Shown piece after piece: positions 4,986 through 64,000 of a DNA stretch of 64,000 nt. Positions within the stretch are counted from its first letter, which is position 1. Every line of letters begins with the position of its first letter. The position numbers and the translations under genes are program-made. The DNA comes from Halobacillus kuroshimensis DSM 18393 (GTDB lineage Bacteria; Bacillota; Bacilli; Bacillales; Halobacillaceae). Below the pieces are notes generated by a model. The model was not told where the DNA came from and did not search any database. It saw nothing but the letters and a program-made list of their open reading frames with translations. The stretch covers positions 310,001 to 374,000 of the forward strand of contig NZ_AUDY01000010.1 of assembly GCF_000425705.1 (NCBI RefSeq), given 5' to 3'.

Positions 4986-5062
4986 GGCGGTGTAGCTCAG
5001 CTGGCTAGAGCGTACGGTTCATACCCGTGAGGTCGTGGGTTCGATTCCCTCCACCGCCACCA
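4986..5062 (+). tRNA. tRNA-Met(CAT), elongator type
   Basis: A 77-nt cloverleaf with encoded CCA. The acceptor GGCGGTG pairs with CACCGCC and the anticodon loop is TTCATAC. The sequence resembles the elongator, not the initiator, tRNA-Met of bacilli. Confidence 0.93.
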
Positions 5063-5087
5063 TACATATGATCTTATCTATAAACAT

Positions 5088-5164
5088 GGCGGTTGTGGCG
5101 AAGTGGTTAACGCACCGGATTGTGGTTCCGGCATTCGTGGGTTCGATTCCCATCAGCCGCCCCA
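5088..5164 (+). tRNA. tRNA-His(GTG)
   Basis: Cloverleaf with anticodon GTG (GATTGTGGTTC). The extra G at -1 faces C73, the hallmark of histidine tRNA. CCA is encoded (5162-5164). Confidence 0.95.
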
Positions 5165-5167
5165 TGT

Positions 5168-5244
5168 GGACCCTTAGCTCAGCTGGTTAGAGCTATCGGC
5201 TCATAACCGATCGGTCGCAGGTTCGAGTCCTGCAGGGTCCACCA
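5168..5244 (+). tRNA. tRNA-Ile2(CAT), probable lysidine-modified isoleucine tRNA
   Basis: A 77-nt cloverleaf with anticodon CAT (GGCTCATAACC) and encoded CCA. The acceptor GGACCCT has C4-G69 and C5-G68, features associated with TilS recognition. The body resembles Bacillus tRNA-Ile2 rather than either methionine tRNA, so it probably reads AUA after C34 is converted to lysidine. An automatic caller would label it Met. Confidence 0.75.
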
Positions 5245-5254
5245 TATAGATTCC

Positions 5255-5347
5255 GGAGGAGTACCCAAGTTTGGCTGAAGGGAGCGGTCTTGAAAACCGC
5301 CAGGGGGTTTACGCCCCGCGGGGGTTCGAATCCCTCCTCCTCCGCCA
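5255..5347 (+). tRNA. tRNA-Ser(TGA)
   Basis: A 93-nt tRNA with a long variable arm (GGGGGTTTACGCCCC region). The anticodon loop is CTTGAAA, giving anticodon TGA. GGAGGAG pairs with CTCCTCC and CCA is encoded. Confidence 0.95.
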
Positions 5348-5393
5348 TCTTTTCTTTTATTATAAAAGAATATATAAAACAGCATACTTTTAT

Positions 5394-5469
<76 letters not shown>

Positions 5470-26136: not shown

Positions 26137-26760
26137 ATGATGAAAATTTCCCGTCTTCCCTTAGGACCGGTATCCACAAACGCTTACATTATTCATGAGA
26201 ATAAAAAAGCGCTGGTTATCGATCCCGGCGGTGATTACAAAAAGCTGGAAAGTTATCTCCAGGAAAGAGAACTGGACGTGAAAGCGGTCCTTCTTACTCA
26301 TGCGCATTTCGACCATATCGGTGCCGTTGATGAGGTGAGGGAGGCATATGGTGCTCCTGTTTACATACACGAAAACGAAGCCGGGTGGCTCGGAGATCCT
26401 GAAAAAAATGGTTCTCAGCTGTTTGGGCTTGGCCGGATAACAGCGGCTCCAGCGGATGAGTTCCTTAAGGAAGGACCGATGGAACTGGAAGGCTTTCCGT
26501 TTGAAGTGCGTTTTACTCCCGGTCATTCACCCGGCAGCGTGTCCTTTGTGTTTAGAAATCAAAGGTTTACCATCGCGGGTGATACTCTCTTCCAGCGCGG
26601 CATTGGGAGAACGGATCTTCCTGGTGGAAGCCGGGAGGTGCTGGAGGACAGCATCCGGACGCAGTTGTTTTCGCTGCGGGCGGATATGCGGATTTTCCCC
26701 GGACATGGACAACCGACAACAGTGGGCGAAGAGATGGAAGAAAATCCTTTCCTGAACTAA
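26137..26760 (+). CDS. yqgX: MBL-fold metallo-hydrolase (glyoxalase II-like, YqgX)
   Basis: A roughly 207-residue metallo-beta-lactamase-fold hydrolase. Zinc ligands are in THAHFDHIG (about 54-62), TPGHSPGSV, the GDTLF aspartate and the C-terminal FPGHG. Small glyoxalase II-like enzymes of this type hydrolyse thioesters; the substrate here is unknown. Two adjacent ATGs (26137, 26140) follow AGAGGTGG, so the start is uncertain by one residue. Confidence 0.92.
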   Translation: MMKISRLPLGPVSTNAYIIHENKKALVIDPGGDYKKLESYLQERELDVKAVLLTHAHFDHIGAVDEVREAYGAPVYIHENEAGWLGDPEKNGSQLFGLGRITAAPADEFLKEGPMELEGFPFEVRFTPGHSPGSVSFVFRNQRFTIAGDTLFQRGIGRTDLPGGSREVLEDSIRTQLFSLRADMRIFPGHGQPTTVGEEMEENPFLN

Positions 26761-26800
26761 AAAAAAGCTGTTATCCATTGAACTGGATAACAGCTTTTTT
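26761..26800. terminator. Bidirectional terminator between yqgX and the DUF2626 gene
   Basis: A perfect 17-bp stem, AAAAAAGCTGTTATCCA (26761-26777) with TGGATAACAGCTTTTTT (26784-26800). Confidence 0.94.
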
Positions 26801-26801
26801 T

Positions 26802-27047
26802 CTAGTGTCCACCAAACCCCGGTACCAGAATAAACGAACAGTAGTAAGTAAAACCAATCATAAAGACTGTCAGGTATGAGAAGAATATGTACACATACAT
26901 ACGTTCTGACAGCTTAAGATACCCAATAGTAAGGAAAAAAGCCGTTTGAACTAGTGAAAGTAGAGATGCTTCCACCATATCACCGGTATAAAACATGACA
27001 GCGAAAATACCTGTCCAAAAGGCCAGAACTCGAAACATACGATCCAT
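26802..27047 (-). CDS. yqgY: Membrane protein, DUF2626 family (YqgY)
   Basis: An 81-residue protein (MDRMFRVLAFWTGIFAVMFY...) with three hydrophobic helices, highly like the DUF2626 family. Function unknown. The start at 27047 follows GGAGGGGG; an in-frame upstream ATG at 27089 has no site. It is divergent from mgsR. Confidence 0.88.
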   Translation of the reverse strand: MDRMFRVLAFWTGIFAVMFYTGDMVEASLLSLVQTAFFLTIGYLKLSERMYVYIFFSYLTVFMIGFTYYCSFILVPGFGGH

Positions 27048-34991: not shown

Positions 34992-35069
34992 GAACGGGAA
35001 AAGATGTGTCATCCATACATTACACGATAGTATGCCCGGTAAAATCTAGGAAAATACAAACGCGAATGA

Positions 35070-35241
35070 CTGCAGAGGGAGAGACCCTTGTAAGGGCGCC
35101 GAAGGAGCAAGCAGAATTGTGAATCTCTCAGGCAAAAAGACCTCTGCAGGACGCAGCTCTGGAGAGCGTCTGCCTTCTACGGGCAGACCACCCAAGAAGC
35201 AAACACCCTCTACAGGTGTGAAACTTTCTGGTTCACGGACA
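35070..35241 (+). ncRNA. Tandem glycine riboswitch (gcvT leader)
   Basis: Aptamer I is closed by CTGCAGAGG (35070-35078) with CCTCTGCAG (35141-35149) and contains the conserved GGGAGAGACC, GCGCCGAAGGAGCAA and TCTCAGGCAAAA. Aptamer II follows at once (35150-35241) with its own GGAGAG, CACCCAAGAAGCAAAC and AAACTTTCTGG. A terminator hairpin follows, so glycine binding probably switches transcription of the glycine cleavage operon on. Confidence 0.94.
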
Positions 35242-35279
35242 GAGACTCCCGCTCATAGCGGAGGAGTCTCTTTTTTTAT
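35242..35279 (+). terminator. Expression-platform terminator of the glycine riboswitch
   Basis: AGAGACTCC (35242-35250) pairs with GGAGTCTCT (35264-35272), followed by seven T. Its left arm adjoins the 3' end of aptamer II, which could compete for it. Confidence 0.9.
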
Positions 35280-53643: not shown

Positions 53644-55002
53644 TTGATAAAAAAAGTTTTAATAGCCAACAGAGGTGAAATTGCTGTCCGGATCATCCGT
53701 GCCTGCAAAGAGATGGGCATCGAGACGGTCGCCATTTATTCTGAAGCAGATAAAGAAGCCTTGCACGTCCAGCTGGCGGATGAAGCCTATTGTGTTGGAC
53801 CTACATTAAGTAAAGACAGTTACTTGAGCTACACCAATATTTTAAGTCTGGCGACGCTGACGCAGACGGATGCGATCCATCCAGGATACGGGTTCCTTTC
53901 TGAAAACGCAGAGTTCGCCGAGATGTGTGAAGAATGTAACATCACTTTCATTGGCCCATCCGCCTATGCCATTCAAAAAATGGGGACGAAAGATGTGGCC
54001 AGAGAAACGATGAGAGAAGCAGGGGTTCCGGTTGTACCCGGTTCCGCTGGAATCATCAACAGCGAGGAAGAAGGCTTGAAGGTAGCGGAAGACATCGGAT
54101 ACCCGGTCATCATCAAAGCGACAGCCGGCGGTGGAGGAAAAGGAATCCGTGTAGCCCGTAATGAAGATGATTTGAAAACAGGAATCCGCATGACCCAGCA
54201 GGAAGCGGAAACGGCGTTCGGCAACCCCGGCGTCTATATTGAGAAGTTCATAGAGGATTTCCGCCACGTGGAAATCCAGGTGCTTGCCGATAATCACGGG
54301 AATGCTGTTCACCTGGGAGAGCGCGACTGTACGATCCAGCGCCGTCTTCAGAAGCTCATTGAAGAAACGCCATCTCCGGCTATTTCCGAAAAGATGAGGA
54401 AGAAGATGGGGGATGCTGCAGTCAAAGCCGCTCTTGCTGTCAATTATTCAGGGGCCGGTACCGTAGAATTCATTTTCGATAAAGAGTCGGACTCCTTCTA
54501 CTTTATGGAAATGAATACGCGTATTCAAGTGGAGCACCCGGTGACCGAAATGGTAACAGGCGTAGATCTTATTAAAGAGATGCTTCTGGTTGCCAACGAT
54601 GAAAAACTTTCCTTTAAACAAGAAGACATCGAGTTTGAAGGCTGGTCCATTGAATGCCGGATCAATGCGGAGAATCCTTATAAAAACTTCATGCCTTCTG
54701 CAGGTAAAATTGATATGTACCTGCCGCCGGGTGGTCTCGGCGTGCGTGTGGATTCTGCAGCTTACCCGGGTTATACCATCCCTCCCTATTATGATTCTAT
54801 GGTGGCCAAGCTCATTACGTACGGCCGTGACAGAGATGAAGCCATCCGCCGTATGAGACGTGCTCTCGATGAATTTGTCGTAGAGGGTGTCCATACAACG
54901 ATTCCGTTCCATCAGCGTATGATGGAGCATGAAGTCTTTGTAAATGGCGACTTTAATACGAAATTCCTTGAGAAGTATACGATTATGAAAGATGAAGCTT
55001 AA
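53644..55002 (+). CDS. accC: Acetyl-CoA carboxylase, biotin carboxylase subunit
   Basis: A 452-residue biotin carboxylase: N-domain MIKKVLIANRGEIAVRIIRA, ATP-grasp glycine loop KATAGGGGKGIRV, and active-site EFIFDKESDSFYFMEMNTRI with QVEHPVTEM. It carboxylates the biotin on AccB. The TTG start lies 15 bp after accB, behind GGGGGATGAG. Confidence 0.97.
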   Translation: MIKKVLIANRGEIAVRIIRACKEMGIETVAIYSEADKEALHVQLADEAYCVGPTLSKDSYLSYTNILSLATLTQTDAIHPGYGFLSENAEFAEMCEECNITFIGPSAYAIQKMGTKDVARETMREAGVPVVPGSAGIINSEEEGLKVAEDIGYPVIIKATAGGGGKGIRVARNEDDLKTGIRMTQQEAETAFGNPGVYIEKFIEDFRHVEIQVLADNHGNAVHLGERDCTIQRRLQKLIEETPSPAISEKMRKKMGDAAVKAALAVNYSGAGTVEFIFDKESDSFYFMEMNTRIQVEHPVTEMVTGVDLIKEMLLVANDEKLSFKQEDIEFEGWSIECRINAENPYKNFMPSAGKIDMYLPPGGLGVRVDSAAYPGYTIPPYYDSMVAKLITYGRDRDEAIRRMRRALDEFVVEGVHTTIPFHQRMMEHEVFVNGDFNTKFLEKYTIMKDEA

Positions 55003-55017
55003 AAGGAGTGGTCATAA

Positions 55018-55425
55018 ATGACTGATAAGCAATTGTTGAATGTGACAGATGGATCGACATTAGGCAATATTGAGATTGCTCCTGAAGTAATTGAAGTCAT
55101 CGCGGGCATTGCCGTATCCGAAGTGGCTGGAGTTGCTTCGATGCGGGGGAACTTTGCCTCCGGTGTTGCAGAACGACTGGGTAAGAAAAATCACGGCAAG
55201 GGTGTCAAAGTGGAGCTGACAGAAAGCGGCATTTTGATTGATGCCTACGTCGTTATGGATTATGGCATCAGTATTCCTGATACCGCCCAGAAAATCCAGG
55301 ACAATACCCGCCAGGCATTGAAAAATATGACAGCTCTTGAAATTAGTGAAATCAACGTGCACATCGTTGGTATCCAAATGGATGGAGCAAAAGAAGAAGA
55401 AAACGAAACGGAAGCCTATTCATAG
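55018..55425 (+). CDS. yqhY: Asp23/Gls24 family protein (YqhY)
   Basis: A 135-residue Asp23-domain protein (IEIAPEVIEVIAGIAVSEVA, then the conserved GVKVELTESGILIDAYVV). It is always next to accBC in bacilli, and B. subtilis YqhY has been linked to control of acetyl-CoA carboxylase. It is probably cotranscribed with accBC; a terminator follows. Confidence 0.93.
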   Translation: MTDKQLLNVTDGSTLGNIEIAPEVIEVIAGIAVSEVAGVASMRGNFASGVAERLGKKNHGKGVKVELTESGILIDAYVVMDYGISIPDTAQKIQDNTRQALKNMTALEISEINVHIVGIQMDGAKEEENETEAYS

Positions 55426-55426
55426 G

Positions 55427-55457
55427 AATCAGAAAGGGGAGACCCTTTCTGATTTTT
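55427..55457 (+). terminator. accBC-yqhY terminator
   Basis: AATCAGAAAGGG (55427-55438) pairs with CCCTTTCTGATT (55443-55454), followed by T. Confidence 0.9.
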
Positions 55458-55562
55458 CTTTTTGCACAAAGGAAACACCAGGCTGTATATCCCTGTTATC
55501 ATGGCTTTTATCCAACTAAAATGTTATGATTCTAACGGATATTACCTTAAAGGAGAATGAAC

Positions 55563-55940
55563 ATGAAACGACGCACAGCACGAGAAAAAGCATTTCAGGC
55601 GCTTTTTCAAACGATTACAGAGGATATTGATACGGATGAGGCCATCCAGCACGTGGTAGAAGATCCGGAGGTTGATCCATTTTTGCACGACCTGGTTCAC
55701 GGAGTCATGGACTACAGGGATGACCTGGATCAGTGGATTGCCGACCATTTGGACAACTGGACGTTCCCACGTCTTCCTAAAGTAGAGAAGACCGTTCTTC
55801 GAATGGCCGCGTATGAAATGAAACATAACGAAGATGTCCCGACACAAGTAGCAATCAACGAAGCAGTAGAACTTGCTAAAATCTTCGGTGAAGAAGATTC
55901 CGGGAAGTTCGTCAACGGCGTTTTATCCAAGATGATCTAA
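55563..55940 (+). CDS. nusB: Transcription antitermination factor NusB
   Basis: A 125-residue all-helical NusB (MKRRTAREKAFQALFQ ... VPTQVAINEAVELAKIFGEE). It binds boxA RNA with S10 during rRNA transcription. The start at 55563 is 7 nt from AAAGGAG; the ATG at 55557 is too close. Confidence 0.96.
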   Translation: MKRRTAREKAFQALFQTITEDIDTDEAIQHVVEDPEVDPFLHDLVHGVMDYRDDLDQWIADHLDNWTFPRLPKVEKTVLRMAAYEMKHNEDVPTQVAINEAVELAKIFGEEDSGKFVNGVLSKMI

Positions 55941-55962
55941 CTTTGAACAGGGGGAATCGGAG

Positions 55963-56814
55963 ATGGCAGCAGAAGTTATTTATGGAAAACAGTTAGCGGA
56001 AGATTTACGGGAAGAGATGAAGCAGGAGGTGGCGGTGCTCCATGAAAAAGGTGTACACCCTAAACTGGTTGTCGTCATTATCGGAGAAGATCCTGCCTCA
56101 AAATCTTATGTAAAAGGGAAGCAGCGGGCTTCTGAAAAAATCGGTATGGATTCTGATCTCATTGAACTTTCTGAGGAAACCTCCGAGCAGGAGCTTCTGG
56201 ATTTGATTCACCGGTTGAACCAAGATGATACGGTTCATGGTATTCTGGTGCAGCTTCCAGTTCCGGAGCATATTTCTGACCAGAAAATAATTGAAGCAAT
56301 CGACCCTGGCAAGGACGTGGATGGCTTCCACCCTGAAAACGCAGGCAGGATGCTGACAGGCCAGGATACCTTTTTCCCCTGCACACCATATGGGATTATG
56401 GTGATGCTTGAACGTGCGGCTATTGATGTGGAAGGAAAACACGCCGTCATTATAGGACGCAGCAACCTCGTCGGCAAGCCTGTTGGACAGCTTCTTCTCA
56501 ATAAGAATGCAACGGTCACCCACTGTCACTCCCGTACAAAGGATTTAAAATCCCATACGAAACAGGCAGATATTCTGATTGTAGCCGCAGGCAGGCCGGG
56601 ACTTGTATCCGGGGAGCATGTGAAGGAAGGCGCTGTCGTCATTGATGTCGGAGTCAACCGTGTCGATGGGAAATTGACCGGCGATGTTGACTTTGAATCA
56701 GCAAAGGAAGTGGCCTCCCATATCACTCCTGTTCCAAAAGGGGTGGGGCCGATGACCATTACCATGCTGCTCCACAATACCATTAAGGCGGCGAAGCAGA
56801 TTCACCGCGTGTAA
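55963..56814 (+). CDS. folD: Bifunctional methylenetetrahydrofolate dehydrogenase/cyclohydrolase
   Basis: A 283-residue FolD with the catalytic YVKGKQRASEKIG (lysine), DVDGFHPENAGRM, and the NADP-binding VIIGRSNLVGKPVGQLLL. It interconverts methylene-, methenyl- and 10-formyl-THF. The ATG follows GGGGGAATCGGAG. Confidence 0.97.
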   Translation: MAAEVIYGKQLAEDLREEMKQEVAVLHEKGVHPKLVVVIIGEDPASKSYVKGKQRASEKIGMDSDLIELSEETSEQELLDLIHRLNQDDTVHGILVQLPVPEHISDQKIIEAIDPGKDVDGFHPENAGRMLTGQDTFFPCTPYGIMVMLERAAIDVEGKHAVIIGRSNLVGKPVGQLLLNKNATVTHCHSRTKDLKSHTKQADILIVAAGRPGLVSGEHVKEGAVVIDVGVNRVDGKLTGDVDFESAKEVASHITPVPKGVGPMTITMLLHNTIKAAKQIHRV

Positions 56815-56826
56815 GGAGGCGTTGTC

Positions 56827-58182
56827 GTGCAGGATCAGTATTTGACGGTAACGGCTTTAACCAAATATATCAAACGGAAACTATCCGGTGATCCTCATTT
56901 GAAGACCGTATGGCTCAGAGGAGAAATTTCCAACTTCAAACATCATTCCAGAGGGCATATGTACATGTCCTTAAAAGATGATCAGGCAAGAATTCAGGCG
57001 GTTATGTTTGCCGGAAGCAACCGCTCGCTGAAATTCATTCCTGAAAACGGTATGAATGTCCTCGTAAAAGGTGAGATCAACGTATACGAACCGATGGGGC
57101 AGTATCAGCTTTATATTAAGGAAATGCAGCCGGATGGAATCGGTGCCTTGTATTTTGCTTTTGAACAGCTGAAGGAGAAATTGGAGAAGGAAGGTCTGTT
57201 TGCTGAAGAACGTAAGAAAAAGCTTCCTACATATCCAAAGCATATCGGTGTGATCACTTCTCCTACCGGTGCGGCCGTCAGGGACATTTTGACAACGATC
57301 AAGAGACGCTATCCGATTGTGCCGGTATCTATCCTTCCGGTTCTTGTCCAGGGGGAGCGCGCAGCAGAATCGGTTTCCAACGCCATAAGGTACGCCAATG
57401 AGCATCTGGATTGCGATGTTTTAATCGTCGGCCGCGGAGGTGGATCTATTGAAGATCTCTGGGGATTCAATGAAGAAATAGTCGCCCGGGCGATTGCAGC
57501 ATCTTCGATGCCCATTATTTCTGCCGTCGGTCACGAAACGGATACAACCATCAGTGATTTTGCAGCTGATTGGAGAGCTCCGACGCCTACCGGGGCTGCA
57601 GAAGTAGCCGTACCTTCCATTACGGAACTGAGAGAACAGGTGCAGCAGTTCAGACAGAGGCTCATAAGATCCATGGACGGGCAGCGGACTGAATCAAGGC
57701 AGAAGCTGAACCGATTAAAAAAATCCTATGCGTTTAAGTATCCGGAACAGCTGATGCGTCAAAAAGAACAGGACCTGGACCGAGTGCTGGAGCGTCTGAC
57801 CAAACAGATGAACCGTCAGCAGTCGAGCCGGCGTGAGCAGCTGGGTTATTTAACCAAACGGCTGGAGCAGCAGGGACCGGATAAAAAAATCAAAGAAGGA
57901 ACAGAGGCTCTTCAAAGGGATACGAAACAGCTCCAGAAAGCTTTCGATACCATCGTCTCCCGGAAAAAAGACCGTTTTCATTCGACGCTGGATAAGCTGA
58001 CCCTGCTGAATCCACTTGAAATTATGAAACGCGGCTATGCCATTCCTTTTGACGAGGAAAATAAGGTCATTAAAAAGGCTGCTCAGGTGTCGGAGGGAAA
58101 CAGTCTTTCCCTTCAAGTCCAGGACGGTTTCATTCAATGTCAGGTTACATCGGTGAAGGAGGATGAACATGGAGGAAAATAA
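56827..58182 (+). CDS. xseA: Exodeoxyribonuclease VII large subunit
   Basis: A 451-residue nuclease subunit: N-terminal OB fold ([20 protein letters not shown]), catalytic core ([53 protein letters not shown]) and a long C-terminal coiled coil that binds XseB. The GTG start follows AAGGAGG. Confidence 0.96.
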
Positions 58183-58405
58183 ACAGGAAATCAGTTTTGA
58201 AGAAGCCATGAATCAGCTTGAGGAAATTGTCGAGAAGCTAGAAACCGGCGAAGTCCCTCTTGAAAAAGCTATTCAATACTATCAAGAGGGGATGAAGCTT
58301 TCAAAGGTATGCAGTGAAAAGCTCGGAACAGTGGAAGAGCAGATGCAGCAGATTATGAATGAGCATGGGAATTTTGAACCTTTCACCGTACAGGAGGAAG
58401 AATAG
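58169..58405 (+). CDS. xseB: Exodeoxyribonuclease VII small subunit
   Basis: A 78-residue helical hairpin ([20 protein letters not shown], then [16 protein letters not shown]) that coats the XseA coiled coil. The start at 58169 is 6 nt after AAGGAGG, within the xseA end (14-nt overlap). Confidence 0.94.
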
Positions 58406-58408
58406 CCT

Positions 58409-59287
58409 GTGGACTTGAATGCTTATTTAAAAGATAAACAAACATTCATTAACGATCAGTTGACCATGTATGTGAGAGATTATACCGTGCCGGGCAGACT
58501 TCAGGATTCGATCCTTTATTCCATTGAAGCCGGTGGGAAAAGGCTGCGTCCTATTCTGCTTCTGGCCACAGCGGAAGCCTTTGGCGCGCCGGTGGGAAAA
58601 GGGCTGAGCGCCGCCGCCGCTCTTGAAATGGTCCACACGTACTCCTTGATTCATGACGACCTTCCAGCTATGGATGATGATGATATCAGGCGCGGGCTGC
58701 CTACCAATCATAAAGAATTCGATGAAGCAACAGCTATCCTTGCCGGAGATGCCCTGCTCACCATGAGTACCCAGCTGATTGCAGAAGACCCATCCCTTGA
58801 ACAGGAAGAAAAAATATTTCTTATTCAGGAGCTGACTAAAGCCGCCGGTCCAAGAGGTATGGTCGAGGGTCAGATGCAGGATATGCTGAGTGAAGGAAAA
58901 GAGATTTCTCTGGAATCTCTGGAAGCTATTCATAAGAATAAAACCGGCGAGTTATTAAAATATGCGATCCGTGCAGGTGCAAAGCTCGGAAAGGCCTCAG
59001 AGCAATCCATGCAGCAGATGAGTGAGATGGCGGAAGCGCTCGGCCTTATTTTCCAGATTCAGGACGACATTCTGGATGTGACCGGCGATGCAGAGGTGAT
59101 CGGTAAGCCTGTAGGCAGTGATGTGGTGAATGATAAAAGTACCTATCCGGGTCTTCTCGGTCTGGACGGTGCAAAAGAGCAGAAGAATCATTACGTCAAA
59201 ACAGCTGAGTCCGCTTTAACGGAAGCAGGTGTTAAAGGTACGGTTCTGTCACAACTTATTCAATATTTGAGCACGCGCGATCATTAA
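58409..59287 (+). CDS. ispA: Polyprenyl (farnesyl/geranyl) diphosphate synthase
   Basis: A 292-residue trans-prenyltransferase with the first aspartate motif DDLPAMDDDDIRRG, the second DDILD and GGKRLRP. It condenses IPP onto DMAPP/GPP and so uses the products of the Dxs-IspG route. The GTG start lies 4 bp after xseB, behind GGAGGAAG. Confidence 0.94.
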   Translation: MDLNAYLKDKQTFINDQLTMYVRDYTVPGRLQDSILYSIEAGGKRLRPILLLATAEAFGAPVGKGLSAAAALEMVHTYSLIHDDLPAMDDDDIRRGLPTNHKEFDEATAILAGDALLTMSTQLIAEDPSLEQEEKIFLIQELTKAAGPRGMVEGQMQDMLSEGKEISLESLEAIHKNKTGELLKYAIRAGAKLGKASEQSMQQMSEMAEALGLIFQIQDDILDVTGDAEVIGKPVGSDVVNDKSTYPGLLGLDGAKEQKNHYVKTAESALTEAGVKGTVLSQLIQYLSTRDH

Positions 59288-59302
59288 TCGGAAGGATTTC
59301 GA

Positions 59303-59331
59303 TTGAGGTGTGTGCTGAAATATGATATATT
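59303..59331 (+). promoter_or_regulatory. Promoter of the OLE RNA
   Basis: TTGAGG (59303-59308), 17 bp, TATATT (59326-59331). The predicted start, about 59338-59341, coincides with the 5' strand of the OLE terminal helix, so the RNA need not come from the xse-ispA transcript. Confidence 0.78.
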
Positions 59332-59340
59332 ATTTTTACA

Positions 59341-59949
59341 AAAGGAATGGTGCAGTATTCTAGTCGGTCCTCCGTTCCTGAAGGCGGGCCTAAAAATCCG
59401 CCAAAGGGCACATCGATGAAGTTCCTTGTGTTGGCTTGAGGCGCCCAGCCTTGGGTCGATGCTGGGAGTTAAGGTCGCAGGGCGATCCACAAAGGCATGT
59501 GGGCGTTGACCCTGCTTCCGCGGAGGCCCATTCTTGTAACGGGCTCTGAGCCAGATACCGTTATGAAATGGGGTATGAACCTGCAGCATATGGAGTAACA
59601 TCTATATGCGCAGCGTAGCCTGCCTTGAGTGGTTTTTGAGGGGATTACAGTCCATGAGCCCCTGTGACTACAGATGGCCACTGTGGTCCTGGGACGTAAG
59701 CTGTATGAAATCACAACTGCAAAAGAGGCTAAGGAACGGTCAAAGGCTGTCGGGGAAATCCCCTAGACTGTTCTATGGACATAAAACGGGAATTATAGTG
59801 CGGACTAAGTGGCAATCTAGTCCAGTTATCGGAAACGAGGCTGAGTCGAGTTTAAAGGGGAACCGCCAGAGTGGTGACACTCGGTACTTGATTGGGAAAA
59901 CCTACTAGACCTAAGCCGCAATTTTTACCCGTTTTGTGACCATTCCTTT
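59341..59949 (+). ncRNA. ole: OLE RNA (ornate large extremophilic RNA)
   Basis: A 609-nt stretch with no credible coding frame lies between ispA and the OapA-type gene before dxs. This is the known OLE locus in extremophilic Firmicutes, and the usual OLE length is about 610 nt. Its ends pair perfectly: AAAGGAATGGT (59341-59351) with ACCATTCCTTT (59939-59949). Inner hairpins are visible, for example GGCGG/CCGCC (59383-59402) and GGGG-AAAT-CCCC (59752-59763). OLE RNAs form membrane-bound particles with OapA and other proteins and affect tolerance to alcohols, cold and magnesium in Bacillus (now Halalkalibacterium) halodurans. Identification rests on synteny, length, structure and partner gene, not on a covariance search. 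Confidence 0.92.
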
Positions 59950-59997
59950 CTGTTTACATAAACAAATTATGATTATATATAGATATAGAGGGTAAGA

Positions 59998-60597
59998 ATG
60001 GATAATAAATTAAAAAAAGCCGTAAATTTCAGTTTGAGCATTGCCGTTATCACATTTGTGTTAGCGGCTATTTTTTCAGTTATCTCTTCTTCCGTTTTAA
60101 GTGGAGTCATGTGGGTCATTGGACTGATCATTGTATTTATCATCGTGCTTACCGGTGTAGTCTTTGATATGCTTGGTATAGCAGCTACAGCTGCTGAAGA
60201 GAAGCCCTTCCATGCGATGGCTTCCGAGAAAGTCCCGGGCTCCAAGGAAGCTATTGCGATTGTCAGAAATGCGGATCGATTCGCAAGTTTCTGTAACGAC
60301 GTTATAGGGGATATATCTGGTATAGTTAGTGGTACGGCCTCCACTGTCGTCGTACTTCAGCTCGCTTCGAGTTTCGGGTATACAGAAGGGTCTGCCGTCC
60401 AAATCGGTATTAACGTGGCCCTTACCAGTATCGTGGCAGCAGTGACGGTGGGAGGAAAAGCCATTGGTAAATTCTTCGCCATCAATAAATCCACGCAGAT
60501 TATCTTTTTCGCTGCCAGGGTGATTGCATGGTTAGAAACCAAATTAAATGTAAGAATATTATCAAATGTCATGTCGTCCACTAAAAAATCAAGATAA
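59998..60597 (+). CDS. oapA: OLE-associated membrane protein OapA
   Basis: A 199-residue protein with about four hydrophobic segments (about 11-34, 36-60, 107-130 and 133-150). A polar middle part contains D101-V-I-G-D105 (CNDVIGDISG), the DxxxD motif known for OapA. It starts 49 nt after OLE, so the RNA and protein are probably made from one transcript. OapA binds OLE RNA and holds it at the membrane; magnesium transport or homeostasis has been proposed. AGAGGGTAAG precedes the ATG. Confidence 0.9.
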   Translation: MDNKLKKAVNFSLSIAVITFVLAAIFSVISSSVLSGVMWVIGLIIVFIIVLTGVVFDMLGIAATAAEEKPFHAMASEKVPGSKEAIAIVRNADRFASFCNDVIGDISGIVSGTASTVVVLQLASSFGYTEGSAVQIGINVALTSIVAAVTVGGKAIGKFFAINKSTQIIFFAARVIAWLETKLNVRILSNVMSSTKKSR

Positions 60598-60615
60598 TTA
60601 CAAGGGGGTCCTTCA

Positions 60616-62508
60616 ATGGATCTGAGCAGAATCAACGACCCTTCGTTATTGAAGGATATGAATACGAAACAATTGGAAGAATTTGCAGCAGAAGTGAGAC
60701 AGTTTTTAATTGAAAACCTGGCCACAACAGGCGGCCACCTCGGTGCGAACCTGGGGGTAGTGGAGCTGACCCTGGCTCTTCATAAAGTATATAACAGTCC
60801 CGTCGACCGTTTTATTTGGGATGTCGGGCACCAGTCGTATATCCATAAGATTCTGACCGGCCGTGGAGGGCAGTTCGACACACTGCGGCAGTATAAGGGA
60901 CTGTGCGGGTTCCCGAAGCGGGATGAAAGTGAGCATGATGTATGGGAAACCGGCCACAGTTCAACTTCATTGTCCGCTGCCATGGGGATGGCTATTGCGC
61001 GCGACTTGAAAAAACAGGATCATTCCATCCTTCCCATCATTGGTGATGGAGCCCTGACAGGGGGGATGGCGCTGGAGGCGCTGAACCATATCGGGCATGA
61101 GAAAAAGAATGTAACCGTTATCTTGAATGATAATGAAATGTCGATTGCCAAAAACGTAGGAGCCCTGCATGGTGCGCTCGGACGGATGAGAAGCGCAGGG
61201 AAGTACAATCGTGCCAAGGATGATCTCGAATGGCTTCTTAAGAAGATTCCCGCCGTTGGAGGAAAGCTGGCGCAGGCAGCAGAGCGCTTGAAGGACAGCA
61301 TGAAGTACTTTGTTGTTCCGGGAATGTTCTTTGAAGAGCTCGGGTTTACGTATTACGGACCGGTGGATGGGCATGATTTTGAAGACTTGATGGAAAACCT
61401 GAATTATGCAAGAAAAACAGACGGACCGGTTATCGTTCATGTGATGACCAAGAAAGGGAAGGGGTATCATCCCGCCGAAACCGATGTGAAGGATAAGTGG
61501 CACGGTGTAGGTCCTTATAAAATCGAATCAGGTGAGAAGATCAAACCGGTCGATGCACCTCCCGCGTGGAGCTCGGTCATCAGTGATGCGCTGATTAAAA
61601 AAGCGCGTGAAGATGAGCGCATTGTGGCTGTGACTCCTGCCATGATTCTCGGGTCCAAACTGGAAAAATTCGGTGAGGAATTCCCGGACCGTTTATTTGA
61701 TGTAGGCATTGCCGAACAGCATGCTACGACGATGTCCGCTGGCCTTGCAACTCAGGGCATGAAGCCGTTTCTGGCCATTTATTCCACCTTCCTGCAGCGT
61801 GGTTATGATCAGGTGGTTCATGATGTGGCCCGTCAGAAATTGAATGTGATTTTCGGTATTGACCGCGCAGGACTCGTCGGAGCTGACGGAGAGACCCACC
61901 AGGGTGTGTTTGATATTGCATTCCTGAGGTCTGTTCCGAATATGATTATCAGCATGCCAAAAGATGAGGATGAAGCCCAGCACCTCGTTCATACAGCTGC
62001 AGAATATGAAGAGGGGCCATTTGCGATCCGTTATCCGCGGGGTAACGCGAAAGGGATCGATACGGATAAACATATGAGGTCCATTCCCGTCGGCAGCTGG
62101 GAAGTCCTGAAAGAGGGGACAGAGGCTGTCATCCTTACGTTCGGGACGACCATTGATGCAGCCCTTGATGCGGCGGGTCGCCTGGAAAAAGAAGGACGGT
62201 CTGTGCGGGTGGTAAATGCCCGTTACATCAAACCGATGGACGAGTCTATGCTGCATGATATGATGAAGCAGGGGCTGCCGATTCTTACGGTAGAGGAAGC
62301 GGTTCTGCTGGGAGGATTCGGTTCAGCAGTGCTTGAATTCGCTGAGGAAAACAATTACACCTCCCAATGGGTGCGCCGGATGGGCGTTCCAGACCGGTTC
62401 ATCGAACACGGCAGTGTACCGAAACTCTGGGAAGAGATCGGGTTGACCCCGGAAAACATGGTGAAAAACCTAAAAGAATTGATACCTACAAAACAACAGA
62501 GGGCATAA
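60616..62508 (+). CDS. dxs: 1-deoxy-D-xylulose-5-phosphate synthase
   Basis: A 630-residue transketolase-like enzyme that uses thiamine diphosphate to make DXP, the first step of the MEP pathway. [18 protein letters not shown], the ThDP-Mg motif [18 protein letters not shown] with LNDNEMSI, and [15 protein letters not shown] are visible. It begins 18 bp after oapA. Confidence 0.97.
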
Positions 62509-62513
62509 ATCAT

Positions 62514-63332
62514 ATGGGCAGAAAAGTACGTTTAGATGTTTTACTTGTAGAAAAAGGCTATATAGAAACGCGTGAAAAAGCGAAACGGACCATCATGGCG
62601 GGACTTGTTTTTCATGAGCAGGTCCGCCTTGATAAACCCGGCTTGAAAGTGGATGAGGAACTGGAATTGATTGTTAAAGGCCGTCCCATTCCGTATGTCA
62701 GCCGCGGCGGATTAAAGCTTGAAAAAGCATTGAAGCACTTTGATCTTTCCGTTAAGGACAAGATTATGATTGATATCGGTTCATCCACCGGCGGTTTTAC
62801 GGACTGCGCGCTTCAGAACGGTGCCAGGCTCAGCTATGCCGTGGATGTCGGATATAATCAGCTTGACTGGCGTCTCCGTAATCATGACCAGGTGGTCGTT
62901 ATGGAACGGACCAATTTCCGATATGTGACGAAAGAGGATCTTACACACGGTCAGCCGCAGTTTGCTTCCATCGATGTCTCCTTCATATCCCTCCGTATCA
63001 TTCTGCCGGTTCTTGCTGAGATTCTGGAGCAGCAGGGAGATGTGGCAGCACTAATAAAACCACAGTTCGAAGCAGGTAGAGAACAGGTAGGGAAAAAAGG
63101 AATTGTAAGAGACCCATCGATTCATAAAGAGGTCGTAAAAACAATTCTTGATTTTGCTTCTGATCACGGATATTCTGTTTATGGACTCACTTTTTCTCCG
63201 ATTACCGGCGGGGATGGGAATATAGAATTCCTCGTCCATCTGCGGCTTGATGATGGCGGCAGCAGTGGAGAACAGGTGGATATCGATGCTGTAGTCAAAG
63301 AAGCGCATGAGGCGCACAGCAGAAACGCATAA
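62514..63332 (+). CDS. yqxC: TlyA family rRNA (cytidine-2'-O)-methyltransferase-like protein (YqxC)
   Basis: A 272-residue protein: N-terminal S4 RNA-binding domain (VRLDVLLVEKGYIETREKAK) and an FtsJ/RrmJ-type methyltransferase with the SAM motif MIDIGSSTGGFTDCALQNGA. TlyA proteins methylate 16S/23S rRNA; some also act as hemolysins. The start at 62514 follows AGAGGG, 5 bp after dxs. Confidence 0.92.
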   Translation: MGRKVRLDVLLVEKGYIETREKAKRTIMAGLVFHEQVRLDKPGLKVDEELELIVKGRPIPYVSRGGLKLEKALKHFDLSVKDKIMIDIGSSTGGFTDCALQNGARLSYAVDVGYNQLDWRLRNHDQVVVMERTNFRYVTKEDLTHGQPQFASIDVSFISLRIILPVLAEILEQQGDVAALIKPQFEAGREQVGKKGIVRDPSIHKEVVKTILDFASDHGYSVYGLTFSPITGGDGNIEFLVHLRLDDGGSSGEQVDIDAVVKEAHEAHSRNA

Positions 63333-63339
63333 TGAGTGT

Positions 63340-63366
63340 AAAAGGGCTTAGCACAGGCCCTTTTCT
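63340..63366 (+). terminator. Possible terminator between yqxC and argR
   Basis: AAAAGGGC (63340-63347) pairs with GCCCTTTT (63357-63364) around a 9-nt loop. The T run is short, so read-through is likely. Confidence 0.6.
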
Positions 63367-63395
63367 TATGGAAGGACTTGAAACGGAGGATGGTC

Positions 63396-63845
63396 ATGAA
63401 CAAAGGACAACGTCACATCAAAATCAGGGAACTGATCACAAACGACGATATTGAAACCCAGGATGAGCTGGTCGATCGATTGAAGGGTATGGGATACAAT
63501 GTCACTCAGGCAACCGTATCCCGCGATATCAAAGAACTGCATCTTGTAAAGGTGCCGATGATGGATGGCCGGTACAAATACAGTCTCCCTGCAGATCAGC
63601 GCTTCAATCCGTTTGAAAAGCTGAAACGGCTCATGATGGATGCCTTTGTCAGTATAGATCGGGCCGGACATTTTATTATTTTGAAAACTCTGCCGGGAAA
63701 CGCCAATGCTGTAGGTGCTCTCGTGGATAATCTGGAATGGGATGAAATTATGGGGACCATCTGCGGAGATGATACCTGCTTAATTATCTGCCGCAGTGAA
63801 GATCATACGGAGTCAATTAGTGAGCAGTTGCTAAATATGCTATAA
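63396..63845 (+). CDS. argR: Arginine repressor
   Basis: A 149-residue ArgR/AhrC: winged helix with [18 protein letters not shown] (about 40-57) and a C-terminal arginine-binding, hexamer-forming domain ([20 protein letters not shown], then [12 protein letters not shown]). It represses arginine synthesis and activates catabolism. The start at 63396 follows GGAGGATGG. Confidence 0.96.
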
Positions 63846-63862
63846 CTGAGGTGGATGGTTTC

Positions 63863-64000
63863 ATGCTAACAGAGTTGTCTATTCGTGATTTTGCAATCAT
63901 TGATGAGATCTCAATCACGTTCAAAGAAGGGTTAACTGTACTGACCGGTGAAACAGGTGCTGGTAAATCCATCATTATTGATGCGATCCAGCTTCTTTCC
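63863..64000 (+). CDS. recN: DNA repair protein RecN, N-terminal part (runs off the window)
   Basis: The 46 visible residues ([20 protein letters not shown], then [18 protein letters not shown]) contain the SMC-like Walker A GETGAGKS. argR-recN order is standard in bacilli. RecN acts early in double-strand-break repair. GAGGTGGATGG precedes the ATG. Confidence 0.95.

Follow-up and report, generated by a model that had tools for sequence, protein, structure and literature searches.

What sets the 3' end of OLE RNA, and how could one operon supply this RNA in abundance and the adjoining oapA and dxs only sparingly? In the available passages of the literature both points are explained by processing alone, with ole described as part of a large operon with its own promoter and the ~630-nt RNA 'presumably' derived by processing (PMC9723947), and with the 3' end of the RNA reported as processed in Halalkalibacterium halodurans (PMC11332333). 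The ole-oapA locus of Halobacillus kuroshimensis DSM 18393, analysed here within a 64,000-nt stretch of its genome (the window), carries a hairpin element inside oapA that offers a testable answer.

The OLE/OapA locus and its partner genes

58409..59287, + strand: ispA (farnesyl diphosphate synthase), upstream neighbour; NCBIfam FPPsyn 389.7 bits (cut-off 275) and Pfam polyprenyl_synt
59303..59331, + strand: putative ole promoter, TTGAGG, 17 nt, TATATT, with an extended -10 (TG); promoter scoring
59331..59959, + strand: OLE RNA; Rfam RF01071, 507.3 bits, full length, and covariation
59473..59519, + strand: OLE helix P6 with the conserved core GGGCGAU...GACCC; Rfam pairs and covariation
59988..59992, + strand: putative oapA ribosome binding site (GAGGG); sequence
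59998..60597, + strand: oapA, encoding a helix-rich CNNM-like protein of 199 aa; open reading frame, profile and model
60298..60312, + strand: codons of the OapA DxxxD motif (DVIGD); open reading frame and relatives
60616..62508, + strand: dxs, downstream neighbour; TIGR00204 914.8 bits (cut-off 465.95)

The original prediction, made from the sequence alone, placed an OLE RNA of 609 nt at 59341-59949, and this stretch is contained in the Rfam match at 59331-59959, which spans all 616 positions of RF01071 (1-616) and scores 507.3 bits (gathering score 50, E 1e-146). The predicted setting of OLE and oapA between the isoprenoid genes ispA and dxs was likewise confirmed for both neighbours by NCBIfam and Pfam. 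OLE was the sole Rfam match (E <= 1) in 55000-64000 and was recovered again in a scan of the whole window, and the genome (3.85 Mb in 15 contigs, the window being 310001-374000 of contig 3) holds a single copy.

Standard pairs occupy 148 of the 158 Rfam pairs in the window RNA (628 of 629 nt were used; the omitted base lies in the unpaired 3' tail and affects no pair). Across 81 sequences, comprising its own and those of 80 named loci (the best 80 of 346) with 72-99% identity to it, 92.8% of the cells were paired compared with 40-44% when the pairing was slid by 1-3 positions, and double changes occurred at 96 of the 158 pairs compared with 40-53 when slid, these being counts over related sequences and not independent events. 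The general promoter scan was at chance level, with two promoter-like sites against 2.8 expected. A best site scoring at least 10.5 preceded OLE in 74 of the 80 OLE-positive loci (best 80 of 346) versus 5% of shuffles, under a score that rewards an extended -10 and shuffles that preserved base composition only.

The open reading frame directly downstream of OLE bears a single DxxxD motif, D101-VIG-D105, which is present in 80 of 80 named relatives (best 80 of 346), in keeping with the prediction of oapA as the partner gene of OLE. The nearest named OapA, among these best 80 of 346, is that of Halobacillus litoralis strain 22508_20_Filter with 95% identity. As for a family profile, the NCBIfam search returned no match and no OapA model matched in Pfam, whereas a profile built from 29 OapA relatives matched the locus at E 6.7e-97, the sequence itself being one of the profile rows. 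Pfam gave CNNM at 22.9 bits, below the cut-off of 28.4, together with two weaker families at chance level, and the weak CNNM match recurred in 12 of 27 relatives at E <= 0.001. For the four-helix membrane protein of the original prediction, the AlphaFold2 model is helical with five long helices and is weak (mean pLDDT 62.9), so that its best PDB fold matches, the archaeal CNNM protein MtCorB (7m1t/7m1u, E 0.025), are taken as consistent with earlier work.

These two signals constitute the likeness of OapA to the CNNM/MpfA (CorB/CorC) Mg2+ transporters, a likeness already published by Fernando and Breaker in 2024 (PMC11332333, in the part available). OapA differs in architecture from MpfA, in which CNNM is followed by CBS and CorC_HlyC, since no CBS or CorC_HlyC match was found in it. 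The OapA profile found nothing among PDB sequences, and its comparison with the MpfA of the same genome recovered no relation (probability 0.3%).

In H. halodurans, OapA binds OLE RNA 2:1, and the RNA requires OapA for its location at the membrane (PMC12054373, available passages). The original prediction had described OapB as L7Ae-like, which swaps the two remaining partners: the consulted parts of PMC12054373 and PMC9723947 give OapB as a KOW-domain protein and OapC as L7Ae-like. The genome search suggested at the time found both. For OapB, a KOW-type protein encoded directly upstream of infA (identified by Pfam) has its match in the crystal sequence 7k9b (E 1.1e-31), and an L7Ae-like protein matches 3v7e (L7Ae-like, E 1.6e-20) and the YbxF entry 4lck (E 2e-20) as OapC. 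The open reading frames adjoining oapC/ybxF look like rpoC and rpsL. A second L7Ae-type protein is encoded after a NusA-looking open reading frame, which we take to be the usual position of YlxQ. The genome also contains one bS21 gene and one protein with the CNNM, CBS and CorC_HlyC architecture of MpfA. Full-length OLE, adjacent oapA, ispA and dxs, oapB upstream of infA, oapC and bS21 are shared with the H. halodurans system, and OLE RNA here would bind membrane-located OapA, OapB, OapC and probably bS21 as it does there.

Helix P6 shows one difference. In H. halodurans the 16S anti-Shine-Dalgarno sequence, CCUCCU, is reproduced perfectly in P6, and the G-C pairs of the P6 core matter for bS21 binding, while the mutants M1-M3, which alter the mimic or other parts of P6, still bind bS21 (PMC12054373, as far as its text was available). 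The window RNA reads CCUGCU at this place (59511-59516). Among 122 OLE sequences (its own, 80 named as the best 80 of 346, 40 from chosen genera and one from a plasmid), 119 could be scored; the scoring rule presupposes GGGCGAU and GACCC, and the other three, with GGGCGAU and GAACCC, fell outside it. An exact CCUCCU was found in 3 of the 119, and 75 were no more than one mismatch away from it, so what is general in this set is the core and not the perfect mimic. The OLE/OapA locus is in sum a good but ordinary representative of a known kind.

Elsewhere in the window, tandem glycine riboswitch aptamers lie at 35066-35153 and 35157-35244 (74.7 and 39.5 bits), and five tRNA genes (Met, His, Met, Ser, Phe) are clustered at 4986-5469.

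A hairpin element in the first codons of oapA

60043..60076, + strand: terminator-like hairpin (60043-60068: 7-bp stem, U.U mismatch, 3-bp stem, 4-nt loop) followed by UAUUUUUU, within oapA codons 16-26; fold and codon constraint

The element was recognised from the ispA-dxs gaps of seven OLE-negative genomes, in which OLE is gone and at most pieces of oapA are left. Six of the seven gaps share GCCGTTATCAC-N4-GTGTTAGCGGC, or a sequence one base off, followed by a T-run, and this matches the DNA of oapA codons 16-26. The start of oapA doubles as a conserved hairpin element, which the earlier reading of this DNA had missed. The window hairpin folds at -14.1 kcal/mol (z -3.59), with pair probabilities of 0.86-0.93 for the outer stem in its context.

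Codon usage was compared in 93 oapA genes (the window's own, 80 named as the best 80 of 346, and 12 others), which are related and do not give independent counts. Codons 16, 17, 18, 21, 23, 25 and 26 are each represented by a single codon wherever the consensus residue is present. The mean codon entropy of the element is 0.28, versus 1.43 for the 79 other degenerate codons whose residue is conserved at 90% or above, and codons 16-26 form the lowest 11-codon entropy window of oapA (p 5e-5 over codons). Third positions with more freedom fall at the loop. This pattern supports well a selection that acts on the nucleotides of the element beyond the protein.

The hairpin occurs in 81 of 81 oapA genes of the window and the named loci (best 80 of 346), 76 by rule and five by inspection. 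Seven of the 174 OLE-positive genomes in the order-wide sample described below lack the pattern, and four of the five examined are without the hairpin. In these four (genera g31, g110, g119 and g28) different codons specify a similar hydrophobic peptide, and folding reaches only 0 to -4.8 kcal/mol; the protein thus does not force the hairpin, which the fifth (g61) keeps through wobble pairs. The 36 of 40 found among OLE-positive genomes hand-picked one per genus is not a rate, as the choice included five of the seven known exceptions; the rate is 167 of 174. Two rows of this set, L200 and L207, are out of register in the alignment, with their hairpins directly visible in the sequence.

Pairing was assessed in 51 distinct rows, obtained from 72 by removing 21 identical ones and with G075 omitted; these rows too are related and not independent. 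Standard pairing accounts for 99.2% of the cells against at most 57% when slid, and double changes in five cells, at four of the ten pairs, were reached in none of 500 shuffles. All five of these cells come from the drifted OLE-negative copies G076, G072 and G084, which had been picked because they form hairpins. The 47 rows found by sequence pair in 99.6% of the cells against at most 59% slid, with one-sided changes only. Since the double changes are confined to three picked rows, the hairpin form leans less on true covariation; it is fairly supported by the invariance of the arms, the free loop, the one-sided wobbles, the kept T-run and the loop of G075.

A covariance model of the element scored 62.3 bits at the window site, with the next best at 17.1. 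It also recovered two copies not used in its building, that of G075 at 49.9 bits and part of that of G073 at 27.7 bits. The lesser window matches, one on each strand at 26757-26804 (17.1 bits, E 0.03, and 15.4 bits, E 0.09), are perhaps an unrelated palindromic terminator. No Rfam family matched the element in the stretches scanned. A consensus terminator scan did not list 60043-60076 either, probably because its rule needs an unbroken stem.

Distribution of OLE, OapA and the element

OLE was found in 52 of 61 near relatives and in 36 of the 37 genomes of the family, the one miss (G021) being an assembly of 1000 contigs with 6% contamination that also gave no dxs match at E <= 1e-150. In the order, 174 of 299 sampled genomes carry OLE and all 174 have OapA. 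OapA was detected in 175 (29-row profile, E <= 1e-8), i.e. these and G239, leaving 124 genomes without both. The G239 contig begins 26 bases before the matched oapA stretch, and its OLE was probably cut off by the contig end. No sampled genome has OLE without OapA, or clearly the reverse. An extreme habitat had also been read from the presence of OLE. This fits Halobacillus, whose members are halophiles, but the frequencies just given for the family (36 of 37) and the order (174 of 299) mean that lineage predicts OLE, and the habitat reading is weak.

Outside these genomes, and likewise speaking against the habitat reading, a full OLE (399.8 bits; L038 7983-8647) was observed on the Pusillibacter faecalis plasmid pMM59_01 (NZ_AP023421.1), a 504-kb record typed as a conjugative plasmid with Homo sapiens given as the source. 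It is followed by an OapA-like gene with a CNNM domain (DVVGD), dxs, a TlyA-family gene, an NAD kinase gene, argR and recN. This Clostridial plasmid was the only blastn match of the window OLE among 72,556 plasmid records, and its OLE copy has no hairpin element by pattern or model. No blastn match of the window OLE was obtained among 50,697 phage records, and viral contigs gave no match to one exact 19-mer or to the exact element pattern.

The element pattern, with up to three mismatches, is single-copy in 200 of the 299 genomes, namely 167 of the 174 OLE-positive and 33 of the 125 OLE-negative ones, and is absent from the other 92 OLE-negative genomes; a reversed-pattern control gave no match among the genomes listed. 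With G239 set aside, 31 of the 32 OLE-negative holders (G091 was left out) were examined together with G075. In all 32, dxs follows the element at a distance of 81-340 nt, and in the 31 that have ispA on the same contig the ispA stop precedes the element by 63-262 nt. Ahead of the element, a promoter-like site with a score of 10.5 or more is present in all 31 scorable gaps versus 5% of shuffles. Its -35 box is TTGAG in 21 of these, a box also common in OLE-positive loci, and the rest have other boxes.

Codon 20 is F in 96% of the 93 oapA genes. In the OLE-negative copies it is free (P, A, S, H, Y, Q, W, R and others, with a stop in G115), stops follow the element at varying distances, and an in-frame start codon before the element is absent in 15 of 31 genomes and present in 16. 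The varying codon, the scattered stops and the missing starts indicate that the element is probably noncoding there, and a small peptide may still run over it in the 16 genomes with a start codon. The G075 copy has a 6-nt loop, the T-runs of G116 and G292 are poor, and in five OLE-negative genomes the hairpin start and the -10 box are only 19-29 nt apart, a very short spacing for an attenuator.

In the 28 OLE-negative junctions first examined, 12 had the element and 16 lacked it by rule. Among these 16, G057, G072, G076 and G084 have a drifted hairpin, G064 has a different hairpin-T site, and G047 and G074 have unrelated hairpins with poor T-runs. G073 showed no hairpin in junction folding, its partial covariance-model match standing beside this. 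Eight of the 16 gave nothing clearly beyond shuffles, though G088 was slightly lower than its six shuffles.

A search of 12 OLE-negative loci that span the ispA-dxs junction detected no OLE remnant at E <= 1. Its four weak matches, to unrelated sRNA families and away from the hairpin element, were taken as chance. Two oapA fragments remain in genomes without OLE, one of residues 3-28 overlapping the hairpin element (G228, L120 1299-1376) and one of residues 81-110 (G074, L133 3663-3752), which suggests the loss of an oapA gene.

Candidate functions of the element and the MpfA contrast

The reading judged probable is that the element is a partial terminator, which would make the 3' end of an OLE precursor and limit read-through into oapA and dxs. 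OLE RNA would start from the promoter at the end of ispA, and the conserved hairpin and U-run in the first oapA codons most likely act as a partial intrinsic terminator. Polymerase stopping at the element would leave a precursor of ~740 nt (from about 59338 to 60076), which subsequent trimming would shorten to ~630 nt, and polymerase reading through would yield the oapA-dxs mRNA. One promoter could in this way give much OLE and little oapA and dxs, an early stop in oapA providing the OLE precursor with its end. The balance could be shifted by ribosomes that initiate on oapA, 45 nt before the element. In genomes without OLE and OapA, the promoter-hairpin pair would form a short leader controlling dxs, and its being kept there implies a role of the hairpin independent of both. 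If the terminator reading is right, OLE would also be tied to dxs control, and a second function would go missing when ole-oapA is deleted or oapA is recoded.

The element resembles the intrinsic terminators and attenuators of Bacillota in its stem-loop with a direct U-run and in its place between a promoter-like site and dxs, and differs from them in lying within coding sequence in OLE-positive genomes and in being conserved in sequence across much of the order. Terminators could plausibly act inside genes in Bacillota, where ribosomes lag behind RNA polymerase (PMC13323073, a paper on Rho, in its available part). An antiterminator formed by pairing of the OLE 3' sequence with a hairpin arm was considered and rejected (candidate AGCCGC in 51 of 81 OLE 3' regions; mean duplex energy -12.1 versus -10.3 shuffled).

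The stem is more invariant than a plain terminator needs. Because it is near-invariant, a trans-acting factor is proposed in a wider reading, held tentatively and given somewhat less than even weight: the hairpin may be a distinct, unrecognised cis-regulatory RNA of dxs read by such a factor. Built into the oapA frame in OLE-positive genomes, this one element would set OLE precursor release, OapA synthesis and isoprenoid entry, and OLE and oapA would have been lost elsewhere while the promoter-hairpin shell persisted.

It is rather unlikely that the locus is an ordinary OLE/OapA locus whose element was already described as the ole terminator, which is a question of priority and not an alternative function. 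No mention of a terminator within oapA was met in the literature searched on OLE/OapA, dxs attenuators and intragenic terminators. The word stem 'terminat' is absent from PMC11332333 and PMC12265935 and 'terminator' from PMC12286853, the 'terminat' passages in the available portion of PMC10898510 concern other genes or references, and PMC9723947, where available, speaks of presumed processing. The founding papers of 2006 and 2011 lie outside the literature covered, which makes an earlier description possible. The new, testable part is the intragenic hairpin and the promoter-hairpin shell ahead of dxs without OLE.

The hairpin might instead be a signal for RNA processing or stability, an RNase site or 3' barrier that fixes where mature OLE RNA ends or where the oapA-dxs mRNA begins. 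The processed 3' end cited at the outset for H. halodurans and the unusually invariant stem speak for such a signal, but the element also occurs in genomes without OLE, and the U-run directly after the stem, which a terminator requires, is retained in nearly all rows, making this explanation unlikely. A DNA operator, i.e. a dyad-symmetric protein-binding site near the dxs promoter, would account for the near-invariant sequence, for the zero double changes in the 47 rows found by sequence, and for two 11-nt arms around a 4-nt loop in 31 of 32 OLE-negative genomes, a length that the search pattern fixed for most. It is quite unlikely in view of the 6-nt loop of G075, the one-sided T-run and the drifted copies, which change sequence yet pair (having been chosen as hairpins). 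Conservation of the codons solely through the first OapA helix, with the OLE-negative copies as neutral oapA fossils, is very improbable and already largely excluded: the peptide is conserved and three g15 genomes retain oapA-like sequence around the element (by eye, with a BLAST match for G228), but synonymous positions are fixed, the four genera without the hairpin encode similar peptides by other codons, codon 20 varies in OLE-negative genomes even to a stop while the arms stay fixed, and the element also occurs in families without a sampled OLE-positive genome (f12, f29, f40, f43, f44 and f47).

The same sample bears on the idea that MpfA replaces the OLE complex. The accessible text of PMC11332333 reports an anticorrelation of OLE with MpfA-type proteins, with 'no more than one' in OLE-positive species. 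The direction agrees here, and the limit for OLE-positive species does not: CNNM matches per genome (E <= 1e-20) averaged 2.01 in OLE-positive and 3.22 in OLE-negative genomes, counted as CNNM-domain matches irrespective of CBS and CorC domains. Shuffling of labels within families gave p 2e-4 for the difference, the effect resting on some families. Among the 15 families that contain OLE-positive as well as OLE-negative genomes, the mean of the OLE-negative ones was higher in eight, lower in five and equal in two (G239 being counted as OLE-negative), and all nine genomes without any CNNM match are OLE-positive (Fisher p 0.012).

The promoter-hairpin shells, the strict co-occurrence of OLE and OapA and the larger CNNM number without OLE provide natural contrasts for this idea. 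At genus level, five mixed genera showed a slight or reversed CNNM difference, and another had three OLE-positive genomes with two matches each and one OLE-negative genome with four. Genus g32, with nine OLE-positive genomes at two to three CNNM matches and two OLE-negative ones (G213 and G323) at seven each, constitutes a natural test of the replacement of the OLE complex by MpfA.
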